Shown: piece by piece, positions 10,688 to 28,939 of the stretch
How positions within the stretch are numbered: the stretch's first letter is position 1
Layout: each line of letters opens with the position of its first letter
Source: a virus
Strand: one strand, 5' to 3'
Length of the DNA: 29,501 nt
Virus record (IMG/VR): IMGVR_UViG_3300032050_000593
Span: 1 to 29,501 of that record
The notes under the pieces: model-generated
Seen by the model: only the letters and a program-made list of their open reading frames with translations
The model's database searches: none
Told to the model about the DNA's origin: nothing
Translations under genes and position numbers: made by a program

Positions 10688-11434
10688 ATGAAGATTGTTG
10701 TGGTATCTGGAGGATTTGATCCTCTACATTCGGGTCATATTTCTTATTTAAATTCAGCAAAAGCACACGGCGACAAATTAATTGTCGGTGTAAATTCCGA
10801 TGAGTGGTTGATTCGCAAAAAAGGTCGAGCATTCATGTCTCTATTTGAACGTACTCGAATTTTACAACATATAAGAGAAGTTGACCATGTTGTTGAATTT
10901 GATGACTCAGATGGTAGTGCTAAACACCTTTTACAAATAGTAAAACAAACTTGGCCGAATGATGAAATCATTTTTGCAAATGGTGGTGATCGAACACAAG
11001 ATAATATACCAGAAATGTCGGTTGAAGGAGTAAAATTTGTTTTTGCTGTTGGTGGCGGAAACAAAATGAATTCGTCATCATGGATACTTGATGAGTGGAA
11101 ATCACCTAAAACTGAAAGGCCATGGGGTCATTATCGTGTACTGTATGAATCAGAAAATACCAAAGTGAAAGAATTGACGGTAAATCCAGGTCAATCGTTA
11201 AGTATGCAAAAACATGAATTCCGAAATGAACATTGGCATGTTGTTGAAGGCACAGGCGTATTGTATGAAGAACGTAAAAGTTCTAACGATACAATAACTT
11301 TATATAAACATAATCAAGTTACAATACCATGTGGTGTCTGGCATCGATTATCGAATGAATCAAATGATTTACTGAAAATTGTAGAAATACAATATGGCCA
11401 AAAATGTCAAGAAGAAGATATTGAAAGAAGATGA
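10688..11434 (+). CDS. Nucleotidyltransferase-cupin fusion for sugar metabolism (248 aa)
   Basis: Residues 1-130 form a cytidylyltransferase-like domain: SGGFDPLHSGHISYL has the HxGH nucleotide-binding signature (His14-Ser-Gly-His17) as in TagD and RfaE-type enzymes, and GRAFMSLFERTRIL supplies the downstream basic motif. Residues 144-245 form a cupin of the type II mannose-6-phosphate isomerase kind: ERPWGHYRVLYE, then NPGQSLSMQKHEFRNEHWHVVEGTG with His176, His182/184 and Glu187 as likely metal ligands, and His219 later. It would activate a sugar or alditol phosphate and perhaps isomerise it. The linked GT2 and GalE-like genes support a glycan role; exact substrates unknown. Confidence 0.85.
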   Translation: MKIVVVSGGFDPLHSGHISYLNSAKAHGDKLIVGVNSDEWLIRKKGRAFMSLFERTRILQHIREVDHVVEFDDSDGSAKHLLQIVKQTWPNDEIIFANGGDRTQDNIPEMSVEGVKFVFAVGGGNKMNSSSWILDEWKSPKTERPWGHYRVLYESENTKVKELTVNPGQSLSMQKHEFRNEHWHVVEGTGVLYEERKSSNDTITLYKHNQVTIPCGVWHRLSNESNDLLKIVEIQYGQKCQEEDIERR

Positions 11435-12186
11435 AAGTAGCCGTAATTACACCTACAATTGGAGCTGACCACTTTGCTAAATGTTTAGAATCAGTTCAAA
11501 ATCAAACATATGACAATCTTGTACATTATATTTTTGTTGACGGCAATCAGTATTTGGATATGGCTGATGGGCATATTAATAAAGTTGGAAATAGAAAACA
11601 AATATCAAGAATCACGCTTGAAGAAAACATTGGCAAAGGTTGGTACGGACATAGAGTTTATTCTGCTTGTTCTTTTTTGGTCAACGCTGACATTATTTGT
11701 TACCTTGATGAAGATAATTGGTACGAACCTAACCATGTTGAAGAATTGGTTAATGTCATTAAAGATGGAAATGATTGGGCATATTCTTTACGAAAAATTT
11801 ATGACAAGCAAGGTGAATACCTCTGTGAAGATAACTGTGAATCGTTGGGTAAATGGCCTGTATATTTTAATCATGAAGTATTCCATATTGATACCTCCTC
11901 TTTTGCTGTTAAGCGTGATGTTGCTACTCGTATAGGTCACGCATGGTACGGCCAATGGGGTGCGGACAGACAATTCTTTGGTGCGATTAAGCATCACTAT
12001 CCAAAATATGATTGTTCACGCCAGCACACACTATGTTACAGATTAGATGGAAATCCTAATTCTGTGACGAAAGATTTTTTTGATCAAGGCAATTTTACAA
12101 CAAACCAAAAATACAACGGTAAATATCCATGGAAAGAAGAACGGCTCTCATCACCGGGGGAAGTGGTTACCTTGGTAATCACTTAG
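11431..12186 (+). CDS. Family 2 glycosyltransferase (251 aa)
   Basis: GT-A fold: the start MKVAVITPTIGADHFAKCLESVQNQTY is the GT2 nucleotide-binding opening, and ICYLDEDNWYEPNHVE at about 89-104 carries the DXD metal site (Asp93-Glu-Asp95). A later GQWGADRQFFGAI segment would be the acceptor/catalytic base region. It transfers a sugar from a nucleotide sugar to an unknown acceptor. It overlaps the fusion gene by 4 bases and the GalE-like gene by 58 bases, an unusually long overlap. Confidence 0.9.
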   Translation: MKVAVITPTIGADHFAKCLESVQNQTYDNLVHYIFVDGNQYLDMADGHINKVGNRKQISRITLEENIGKGWYGHRVYSACSFLVNADIICYLDEDNWYEPNHVEELVNVIKDGNDWAYSLRKIYDKQGEYLCEDNCESLGKWPVYFNHEVFHIDTSSFAVKRDVATRIGHAWYGQWGADRQFFGAIKHHYPKYDCSRQHTLCYRLDGNPNSVTKDFFDQGNFTTNQKYNGKYPWKEERLSSPGEVVTLVIT

Positions 12187-13076
12187 CAAAAGACCTAAAA
12201 CAAAAAGGTTGGGAAGTAGTAACACTTGACCGAAAAACCTGTAGTAACAAATATGTTGATTCACATTTTCGTGGCGATGTTCGTGACGCCGATGTGTTAA
12301 TGCAGATATTTGAAACATATCAGGTCAATACAGTTTTTCATCTTGCAGGTCGCATTGAAGTTGGTGAATCATTTAAAGATCCAACTTTATTTTATGATGT
12401 GAATCTTGGTGGCACCTGCAAACTTTTACATATGATGAAATTATATGGTGTTAAAAACATTGTATATTCTTCATCTGCTGCAGTATATAAACAACAAGGT
12501 CGTAACTTAAAAGAAGATGATGAAATCGCTCACAATTCACCATATGGTTATACTAAATATGCGTCTGAATGGGCCATCCGTGATTCGAATTTAAATTACG
12601 TTATTTTCAGATATTTCAACCTAGCTGGCGCAGATCCAGACAATGAATTTGGTGAGTGTCACAATCCAGAAACTCATCTAATTCCACGAATTCTACAAAA
12701 TCTAAATAAAGTACAAATATATGGAAAAGACTATCTTACAAACGATGGAACGTGTATTCGTGATTACGTGCATGTTTCTGATGTTGCCTCTGCCCATGCT
12801 GATGGGGCAGATTACCTCAATGCAAGCGGGCAATCCGTTATTCTTAACTTGGGTACTGGGGTAGGATACTCGGTATTAGAAATAATTGGCAAAATTGAAG
12901 AAGTTACCAAGAAAAAGATTACCTATACCTTCCTCCCACGTAGACCTGGTGACCCGACCCGATTGGTTGCCGATGTTACTCTTGCCGAAAAAGTCTTGAA
13001 TTTTCGGCCAAAGTATGATATAATGAACATTCTACAAACAGCACATAACTGGCAAACTACACAAAATGGCAAGTAA
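12129..13076 (+). CDS. galE: GalE-like UDP-sugar 4-epimerase (315 aa)
   Basis: Extended SDR enzyme: TGGSGYLGNHLA at 9-20 is the NAD-binding GxxGxxG loop, VFHLAG at 69-74, SSSAAVY at 114-120 carries the catalytic Ser, and Tyr139-x3-Lys143 (YGYTK) is the catalytic pair. RYFNLAGADP and the C-terminal RRPGDP are typical of UDP-glucose/galactose 4-epimerases. It would interconvert UDP-sugars for the neighbouring glycosyltransferase. The start at 12129 is fixed by the NAD loop that begins at residue 9; it overlaps the GT2 gene by 58 bases and has no clear ribosome site, so coupling is likely. Family specificity (GlcNAc vs Glc) cannot be read. Confidence 0.9.
   Translation: MERRTALITGGSGYLGNHLAKDLKQKGWEVVTLDRKTCSNKYVDSHFRGDVRDADVLMQIFETYQVNTVFHLAGRIEVGESFKDPTLFYDVNLGGTCKLLHMMKLYGVKNIVYSSSAAVYKQQGRNLKEDDEIAHNSPYGYTKYASEWAIRDSNLNYVIFRYFNLAGADPDNEFGECHNPETHLIPRILQNLNKVQIYGKDYLTNDGTCIRDYVHVSDVASAHADGADYLNASGQSVILNLGTGVGYSVLEIIGKIEEVTKKKITYTFLPRRPGDPTRLVADVTLAEKVLNFRPKYDIMNILQTAHNWQTTQNGK
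12996..13024 (+). promoter_or_regulatory. Candidate sigma-70 promoter before the ClpP-like gene
   Basis: TTGAAT (12996-13001), 17 bases, TATAAT (13019-13024) within the end of the GalE-like gene, with a predicted start about 35 bases before the ClpP-like ATG at 13066. The -10 box is perfect and the spacing ideal. It would let clpP be expressed apart from the sugar genes. Confidence 0.5.
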
Positions 13077-13641
13077 AGAACCACAAAAACCCGAAGGTTT
13101 AGGTGCCGATGATGTTATCGGCCTCCGACTTTTAGATACCCATACTTTTGTTCTCAACGGTGAAATTGACGCTGATAATATCGCCGGCGCAATTCGCTGG
13201 TTGATCTATGAGAACGCAAGTGATGAAGAAAAGGAACTAACACTATACATTAATTCAACAGGTGGACTATTGAACGATGCTTTTGGTTTAATTGATATGA
13301 TGCGTAATTCAAAGCATACAATTAAAACCGTTGGTCTTGGTAATGTCATGTCATCTGCATTTTTAATTTTTGCAGCGGGCACTAGAGGTCACAGATATAT
13401 TGCCAAAAATGCAAGCATACTATCGCATCAGTATAGCGAAGAACTAAGTGAAGCAAAACACCATGATATTAAATCTTTTACAAAAGAATGTGATAATACG
13501 AATCAAAGAATGGTGACTTTGTTAAAAGAATGTTCTGATCTATCAACGACAGAAATCAAAAGAAAACTTTTGCCAGCATCCGATGTTTGGTTGACAGCAG
13601 AAGAAATTGTTGAACTAGGTATTGCTGATTATATCTTATAA
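13066..13641 (+). CDS. clpP: ClpP-like serine protease (191 aa)
   Basis: ClpP/crotonase-fold peptidase: LTLYINSTGGLLNDAFGLIDMM (58-79) is the oxyanion-loop region, GNVMSSAFLIFAAG (92-105) carries the nucleophile (Ser96), ILSHQY has His121, and ASDVWLTAEEIVELGIAD has Asp173, so a complete Ser-His-Asp triad is present. The nucleophile context is MSS rather than the usual ASM, so it is a diverged member. Phage ClpP homologues may reprogram the host Clp protease or process phage proteins; which is the case here is unknown. No ATPase partner is encoded nearby, so it would rely on host ClpA/ClpX. Confidence 0.9.
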   Translation: MASKEPQKPEGLGADDVIGLRLLDTHTFVLNGEIDADNIAGAIRWLIYENASDEEKELTLYINSTGGLLNDAFGLIDMMRNSKHTIKTVGLGNVMSSAFLIFAAGTRGHRYIAKNASILSHQYSEELSEAKHHDIKSFTKECDNTNQRMVTLLKECSDLSTTEIKRKLLPASDVWLTAEEIVELGIADYIL

Positions 13642-23083: not shown

Positions 23084-23200
23084 TGTGATGGTACGAACCG
23101 AGTATTCTGGTAGCAAAGGCGAAAGCTGACCATCACACCTAATTCGTTGAAGGTTGTAAAAAATGCGTTGGACGGCGGTGCGATTCCGCCCATCTCCACC
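23084..23200 (+). ncRNA. tmRNA acceptor piece
   Basis: Opens with a perfect 9-bp stem, TGTGATGGT (23084-23092) with ACCATCACA (23129-23137), probably a pseudoknot or end-capping helix. The P2 3' strand follows, then the T arm GGCGG-TGCGATT-CCGCC (23173-23189), acceptor strand CATCTCC and encoded A-CCA ending at 23200. The T loop has G at position 55 in place of the usual U. Processing would follow tRNA rules. The 5' end is approximate. Confidence 0.85.
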
Positions 23201-23291
23201 AAAAGCATATCTAGTTATGTGTTGAGGCAAAATGCCCTGCAACGGCACATAATGAACTTGCTATGTTGCAGTAGTATGGTATGCTTCTGAT
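23201..23291 (+). other. tmRNA intervening segment, probably excised
   Basis: Between the CCA and the GGGGATG of the coding piece. Outer pairs AGCATA/TATGCT bring the ends together, and an inner stem TTATGTG/CACATAA encloses GTTG/CAAC and GGCA/TGCC. Such a folded spacer is expected in permuted tmRNA precursors, where it is cut out to give two pieces. Confidence 0.7.
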
Positions 23292-23480
23292 GGGGATGAA
23301 ATAGTTTCGACAGCGTATGTAATGAACAACTGGAGAATCGGCAACGCCAAAGCCGTTAGGGTTGAGACTACTCGGCCGAAGAAGCAAACAAGTAAATGCA
23401 AACGATGAAAGATTTGCGCTGGCAGCCTAACCGCTGACCGGAGTTTTCGGTGATTGAACTTGGCAACAGAATCAATCACC
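23292..23480 (+). ncRNA. tmRNA coding piece with tag ANDERFALAA
   Basis: Starts GGGGATG, continues with TTTCGACA, P2 5' strand, a PK1-like element (CGGC 23339-23342 with GCCG 23352-23355), then the resume codon GCA at 23398 and the tag ending in CTG GCA GCC TAA at 23430 (LAA). After the stop ACCG/CGGT and a perfect 8-bp stem GGTGATTG/CAATCACC (23449-23456 with 23473-23480) close the piece. The tag ends with ALAA, the signal for ClpXP. The 3' end is approximate. Confidence 0.88.
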
Positions 23481-28054: not shown

Positions 28055-28939
28055 ATGAGTAGTTTCGCAAACCTAAAACGTGGTCGTTCTGACCTCTCTA
28101 AACTTACCAAAGCAATCGAAGCAACAGCGCAACCTGCTGAAGGCGGTGGTGCAGATGATCGTTTTTGGAAACCTTCTGTTGATAAAGCAGGAAATGGCAT
28201 GGCAGTTCTGCGTTTTCTTCCTGCACCTCAAGCTGATGGTGATGATGCTCTTCCTTGGATTCGTGTGTTTTCACATGGATTTCAAGGACCTGGTGGTTGG
28301 TTAATTGATAATTGCTTGACAACAGTAAATCAAAATTGTCCTGTGTGTGAAGCAAATTCTACATTATGGAATTCAGGCATCGAAGCAAATAAAAACATTG
28401 CTCGTGACCGTAAACGTAAACTTTCATACATCGCTAATGTGTTGATTGTTTCTGATCCTTCAAATAAAGAAAATGAAGGTCAAATCAAACTGTTTAAGTT
28501 TGGTAAGAAAATCTTTGATAAGATTACGGAGGCTATGAATCCTGATCCGGCATTTGCTGATGAGAAACCAATGAATCCTTTTGATATGTGGGAAGGTGCA
28601 AACTTTAAACTGAAAATTCGTAAAGTTGATGGTTATCAAAACTACGATAAATCAGAGTTCGAAAGTCCTTCTGCAATATATGATGGTGACGATGACAAGT
28701 TGGAAGAATTGTGGAAGAAAGAACATTCTCTAAAAGAGTTTGTTGAACCAAAACAATTCAAGTCATACGATAAATTGAAAGAGCGCCTAGATAAAGTTCT
28801 TGGTACGGCAGTTCCTGCAGCAGTAGCAACTAAGGCAGCTGCCGCTTCTTTATCTGAAGATGATGATGTTCCGTTTGATACATCAGGTGCGGATGATGAA
28901 GATTTAGATTACTTCAAATCTTTGGCAAATCAAGACTAA
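28055..28939 (+). CDS. 32: gp32-like single-stranded DNA-binding protein (294 aa)
   Basis: T4 gp32 architecture: a basic N-terminal B domain (SFANLKRGRSDLSKLTKAIE), a core with OB fold and zinc site His74 (FSHGF), Cys87, Cys95, Cys98 (CPVC) with 13-8-3 spacing against 13-10-3 in T4, and an acidic C-terminal A domain (SEDDDVPFDTSGADDEDLDYF). It coats single strands during replication and recombination and recruits gp59 and other proteins. Length (T4: 301 aa) fits. A terminator follows. Confidence 0.95.
   Translation: MSSFANLKRGRSDLSKLTKAIEATAQPAEGGGADDRFWKPSVDKAGNGMAVLRFLPAPQADGDDALPWIRVFSHGFQGPGGWLIDNCLTTVNQNCPVCEANSTLWNSGIEANKNIARDRKRKLSYIANVLIVSDPSNKENEGQIKLFKFGKKIFDKITEAMNPDPAFADEKPMNPFDMWEGANFKLKIRKVDGYQNYDKSEFESPSAIYDGDDDKLEELWKKEHSLKEFVEPKQFKSYDKLKERLDKVLGTAVPAAVATKAAAASLSEDDDVPFDTSGADDEDLDYFKSLANQD

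Follow-up and report, generated by a model that had tools for sequence, protein, structure and literature searches.

A predicted circularly permuted tmRNA gene with exchangeable intervening content in a T4-like aquatic phage

Analysis of the window, the whole 29,501-nt stretch of viral DNA studied here, indicated that positions 23084-23480 (plus strand) very probably form a functional permuted tmRNA gene, of the beta-/alphaproteobacterial two-piece kind, carried by a T4-like aquatic phage. ARAGORN called the locus a tmRNA of its "Permuted" class with the tag ANDERFALAA, and Infernal matched the Rfam family RF04321 at 23142-23430 with 120.2 bits (gathering threshold 47, E 3e-23) over model positions 1-213 of 213. 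Because this match spans the whole model, both halves of the gene scored; together with the ARAGORN call it bears out the initial annotation of a permuted tmRNA at this place and removes the concern that a covariance search might score one half only. The part of that annotation well supported by the sequence is the identity of the locus: a permuted tmRNA carried on a T4-like phage contig. Its suggestion that T4-like phages might so far have lacked a described case does not stand, a two-piece tmRNA having been published for the phage Melnitz in 2022 (PMC9004378).

The anatomy of the gene follows the permuted order. Positions 23084-23137 (fold z -2.2), a 5' leader or else the first portion of the acceptor piece, hold a three-way-junction motif; they are followed by the P2 strands of the acceptor piece (23142-23170), which pair across the permutation with 23311-23338 in the RF04321 alignment, by the T arm (23174-23190; GGCGG TGCGATT CCGCC), recognized by both ARAGORN and Rfam, and by the acceptor 3' strand CATCTCC (23191-23197) with ACCA (23198-23201). 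The intervening segment (IVS) of 90 nt (23202-23291) has a folded RNA content and is predicted to be removed at maturation. The coding, mRNA-like piece of about 189 nt (23292-23480), delimited by ARAGORN, RF04321 and folding, runs from the tRNA-like 5' end GGGGATG (23292-23298, RF04321 alignment) to a 3'-terminal hairpin (23449-23480, fold z -3.0), whose loop CTTGGCAACAGAA also occurs in the RF01849 (alpha) alignment. The acceptor 3' strand and CCA thus lie upstream of the 5' strand with which they form the stem, and the 7-bp pairing claimed initially was recovered in full (7/7), G3.U70 included; G3.U70 is the alanine identity pair. Both P2 helices proposed to cross the permutation are present in the RF04321 alignment, with a single mismatch per outer helix. 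The resume sequence AGTAAAT precedes the tag frame, which was located by ARAGORN at 23398-23430, encodes ANDERFALAA with its ClpXP-type signal and closes with a TAA stop, just as initially read; an identical tag occurs in a permuted tmRNA of bacterial origin (L505). The folded spacer of the initial annotation likewise proved real, having a 9-bp closing helix (23203-23211/23278-23286) and a z of -2.7 against dinucleotide shuffles, and the outer limits it gave, 23084 and 23480, coincide with two hairpins. The T-loop of the window (23179-23185) reads TGCGA for TTCGA, with G at the usual U55, as it does in a number of relatives (L045, L088, L194, L266).

For comparison, 144 distinct phage permuted tmRNAs were gathered by two tag-region patterns, a motif pattern, gp32 and ClpP; fetching by tag pattern biases the tag start, not the tag end. 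The acceptor stem takes 24 forms among these copies and is fully paired in 130 of the 144, and pairs 4-6 vary on both sides (GC/CG, AT/CG/GC/TA and TA/AT, respectively), so that the pairing read from the single sequence is accompanied by covariation in homologues. Tags occurred in 45 forms, with an AA end in 143/144 copies. Full-length model scores, conservation and covariation rule out chance folding of the locus. In three relatives (L126, L131, L145) the predicted tag, ANADTNDFTAMSFTGNTVTGKSKVALAA, has 28 residues, far above the usual ten. A consensus TTGACA-TATAAT (sigma-70) promoter was found within 260 nt upstream of 49 out of 142 phage tmRNAs, compared with 9.6% of control stretches, and often lies near enough for transcription to start at the acceptor piece or the leader motif; the window has no consensus sigma-70 promoter at its tmRNA gene.

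The contig, a 29.5-kb IMG/VR virus record, belongs to a lake-type virus of bacteria and carries the T4-type genes gp32, helicase loader, RNase H and exonuclease as well as four tRNAs detected by ARAGORN. The gene for the gp32 single-stranded DNA-binding protein (28055-28939, plus strand) is a T4-like hallmark and served as synteny anchor; the tmRNA lies about 4.5 kb upstream of it. Among gp32 relatives (68-100% identity), 29 had at least about 5.2 kb of upstream sequence, and in 23 of these ARAGORN placed a permuted tmRNA on the same strand, 2.8-5.2 kb upstream of gp32. Infernal added a permuted tmRNA upstream of gp32 in L067, L071 and L116 (the last copy being cut) and found none there in L070; L068 and L069, whose gp32 match scores are identical to that of L067, lay outside the Infernal scan. 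From the ARAGORN calls and these further matches, the tmRNA is close to universal and syntenic in the gp32 clade. At the DNA level, the only relative among isolates was BUCT-ZZ01, with 20% coverage.

The subtype of the window's gene is left open, since its score with beta_tmRNA (RF01850; 80.8 bits) falls just below the gathering threshold of 84 and alpha_tmRNA (RF01849; 80.1 bits) passes its threshold of 50, yet most relatives match the beta model (85-166.5 bits), which is the best model for most close relatives. With the Rfam permuted families (RF04321; RF01849 alpha, RF01850 beta, RF01851 cyano), the locus shares the order acceptor piece, IVS, coding piece, the G3.U70 acceptor stem, P2 across the permutation and the ALAA tag end, and with the alpha model also the 3'-terminal hairpin loop. 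It departs from them in being phage-borne, in its extra three-way-junction leader and in its beta score of 80.8 against 84 bits. Two-piece phage tmRNAs as such are already known: besides that of the Methylophilales phage Melnitz, described by its authors as T4-like, ARAGORN assigned 53 of 133 phage tmRNA types to the two-piece form in 2021, of which 50 were aquatic (PMC9004378). Melnitz and the window have in common a T4-like aquatic phage and a permuted tmRNA with a mature tag; the Melnitz ssrA has been assigned to the alphaproteobacterial type and linked with a glutamine riboswitch, whereas the window's relatives match the beta model, no riboswitch family matched the window, and its group carries other cassettes in the IVS, on whose content the Melnitz text, as far as consulted, is silent (PMC9004378). 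The Synechococcus phage BUCT-ZZ01 (ON615601) has a permuted tmRNA (ANDETFSMALAA) and a ClpP of the window's family; it differs in being a cyanophage whose 111-nt IVS bears no relation to the window's, and nothing is annotated in its record at the matched place. A 2025 tmRNA database holds 79 phage sequences, and the consulted parts of its 97,179-sequence survey name as IVS oddities one tRNA (tRNA-Ala) and one repeat and nothing else (PMC11915505). Those too are foreign elements within an IVS, but they are reported as isolated cases, each in one permuted tmRNA gene of a cellular genome (PMC11915505), whereas cassettes, protein genes included, are general in this phage group.

The initial annotation had overlooked the exchangeable IVS content, the sharing of a three-way-junction motif and ClpP as a frequent partner. 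The phage IVS has a median length of 76 nt (range 4-248), against 25-43 nt for the beta kind in bacteria (12 bacterial permuted tmRNAs; a 78-nt call in L532 was judged spurious), and the window's 90-nt IVS with its own fold contrasts with that short bacterial hairpin. Our comparison covered 124 distinct phage IVSs, L013, L151, L191, L193 and L212 being omitted because their ARAGORN IVS limits were apparently wrong. The closing helix has a mean length of 10 bp, compared with 3.7 bp when its strands are shuffled, and occurs as 106 distinct stems, from which we conclude that it is kept by compensatory change. Close relatives carry unrelated IVS contents, unrelated tmRNAs have contents in common (L016 with L054; L019 with L208 and L251), and some phages (L011, L180, L227) retain a bacterial-like 30-nt IVS.

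The IVS of the window is of the RNA type. It gave just weak, chance-level matches to Rfam and belongs to no Rfam family, and 18 relatives contained no Rfam family besides tmRNA and tRNA. A generally low folding energy was not found inside RNA-type IVSs (mean inner z -0.4). The glutamine riboswitch proposed beside the Melnitz ssrA had no match in IVS or leader. HDV-like and theta ribozymes are tRNA-linked in phages; neither matched the window IVS in Rfam, and the strand order does not fit them. Strands that could form an H-type pseudoknot are present in the window IVS, but the predicted fold is nested and no more than two near-identical sequences have this IVS, for which reasons no pseudoknot is claimed. 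A 23-codon GTG frame ending at the processing site has neither a ribosome site nor homologues and is therefore taken as chance.

In many relatives, the IVS is itself an open reading frame (ORF). A ribosome site frequently follows the CCA directly, and many of these frames end in a TGA or TAA stop adjoining the mature tmRNA 5' end. They include the families MNDDLTPLAIGVVVVLVVFAIVLL (L203, L214, L224), MKPYEVIVITLLTILILVHVFF-like (L077, L159, L110-L112) and MFENWHWQYLWGIA-like (L173, L225, L194, L268), in the last of which some frames continue into the coding piece. Several IVS ORFs show the signature of purifying selection, with pS/pN of 0.61/0.13 and 0.72/0.10 in the MNDDLTPLAIGVVVVLVVFAIVLL family and 0.46/0.08 for L173/L225. 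The IVS of L100 encodes a PGDYG protein (PF14083, E 3.4e-6; phrog_419, E 1e-11). A perfect acceptor stem with G3.U70 was present in 23 of the 24 ORF-bearing tmRNA genes checked. In L438, an ORF that starts in the IVS stays in frame across the coding piece and reaches the tag, giving 72 aa that end in ANDESYALAA.

The leader motif consists of CGAACCGAG...GGTAGC...GAAA within an 8-9-bp helix (P1, 23084-23092/23129-23137 in the window). Its 15 distinct phage copies are found in tmRNA leaders (the window, L077, L086, L141), in IVSs (L060, L088, L122, L125-L127, L171, L174), beside tRNA-Gly or tRNA-Met (L144, L162) and once elsewhere (L149), and the motif model never detected more than one copy in a virus record. 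Its covariation score of 0.385 exceeded that of shuffled alignments (0.222 ± 0.024; 0/500), with slid controls at or below 0.095. No copy was detected in 300 genomes of the same order as the comparator host, and the leader motif had no Rfam match at E<=10; this predicted three-way-junction RNA appears to be new. A second cassette, GATTGGTAAGCC, is shared by two IVSs (L216, L245) and the region upstream of a tRNA-Met in L162. In L144 and L162, a conserved stretch of about 68 nt (GCGGTGTGTAATAGTACGA...CACCGCTCCA), which looks structured or tRNA-like, directly precedes the motif.

A phage ClpP homologue of 191 aa (13066-13641, plus strand; PF00574, E 3e-31) is a possible functional partner of the tag. 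Its Ser and His align with those of bacterial ClpP; the catalytic Asp is not clearly conserved. ClpP of this family was present in 14 of 20 tmRNA-bearing phage records, and 8 of 20 ClpP-bearing records had a permuted tmRNA above cut-off, a pairing that is suggestive of a functional link and goes no further, since shared ancestry could explain it. Three large virus records (G006, G008, G009; 184-210 kb; loci L492-L494, L533, L534) combine a permuted tmRNA and ClpP with a ClpA-like protein of about 755 aa and an AAA_2 protein of ClpX size (about 408 aa), and would thereby possess a nearly complete tag-and-degrade set without SmpB. SmpB was not found in 18 phage records, from which it follows that the phage tmRNA would depend on host SmpB. 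Adjoining the ClpP gene of the window is a sugar nucleotide gene cluster (10688-13076) with a cytidylyltransferase/cupin protein, a glycosyltransferase and an epimerase.

The sequences themselves show the gene's anatomy, its pairing and covariation, the synteny, the turnover of the IVS and, in some IVSs, coding selection; processing, tagging, timing and benefit of the phage tmRNA we infer. Acceptor piece, IVS and coding piece would be transcribed as one precursor, from which host tRNA-processing enzymes could excise the 90-nt IVS, with RNase P acting at GGGG and 3' processing at the CCA. Pairing in the acceptor stem and P2 would keep the two pieces together. Once aminoacylated with alanine, and with SmpB supplied by the host, the molecule could rescue ribosomes stalled on broken mRNA, and the added ANDERFALAA would direct the product to host ClpXP or to a phage-assisted Clp protease. 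Since the IVS would be discarded, phages of this group could use it as a slot with freely exchanged contents, holding a folded RNA in the window and small protein genes in relatives.

That the gene is instead a passenger, derived from a host and decaying or neutral with no function in infection, we consider very unlikely. Phages do capture host RNA genes, and the atypical T-loop and the lack of an evident promoter in the window would fit such an origin; the acceptor stem, G3.U70 and tag are nevertheless kept across 144 diverged copies, the gene is nearly universal and syntenic in the gp32 clade, and many relatives have consensus promoters. Very unlikely too, and if anything less probable, is a decoy or inhibitor that competes with host tmRNA and carries out no trans-translation. 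Mycobacteriophage DS6A offers a phage precedent, its tag-less tmRNA-like RNA being reported as an inhibitory form (PMC11915505), and the failure to find SmpB in the 18 phage records would suit this role, but the resume sequence, tag, stop and ALAA end, with which an inhibitor could dispense, are all kept here.

For the IVS, the chances seem evenly divided that in many aquatic T4-like phages it is a dedicated cassette slot, through which one transcript would yield a tmRNA and a second functional product; its cassettes, in an equally balanced judgement, would comprise genes for small proteins (membrane peptides, a Trp-rich peptide family, the PGDYG protein) and compact structured RNAs, among them the three-way-junction RNA that also lies beside phage tRNAs. 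It is rather unlikely that the contents are random filler whose lengths and ORFs vary merely through absent constraint, a possibility to which the weak average folding signal in inner RNA-type IVSs (mean inner z -0.4) and the differences between close relatives lend some weight. Against it, the three-way-junction motif shows covariation and turns up at several positions, IVS ORF families show pS of 0.6-0.7 versus pN of about 0.1, one IVS gene is a recognized PGDYG protein, and ribosome sites precede several starts.

Exchangeable IVS contents in this phage group appear to be new. The slot would allow genes to be nested within the gene of a structural RNA, an arrangement not found in the literature searched, which included the consulted parts of the PMC11915505 survey. 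The wide occurrence of a tmRNA among these related phages suggests that the rescue of ribosomes or tagging may be limiting during infection, and the frequent phage ClpP, together with the ClpA-like and AAA unfoldases of three large relatives, points to a tag-and-degrade phage strategy.
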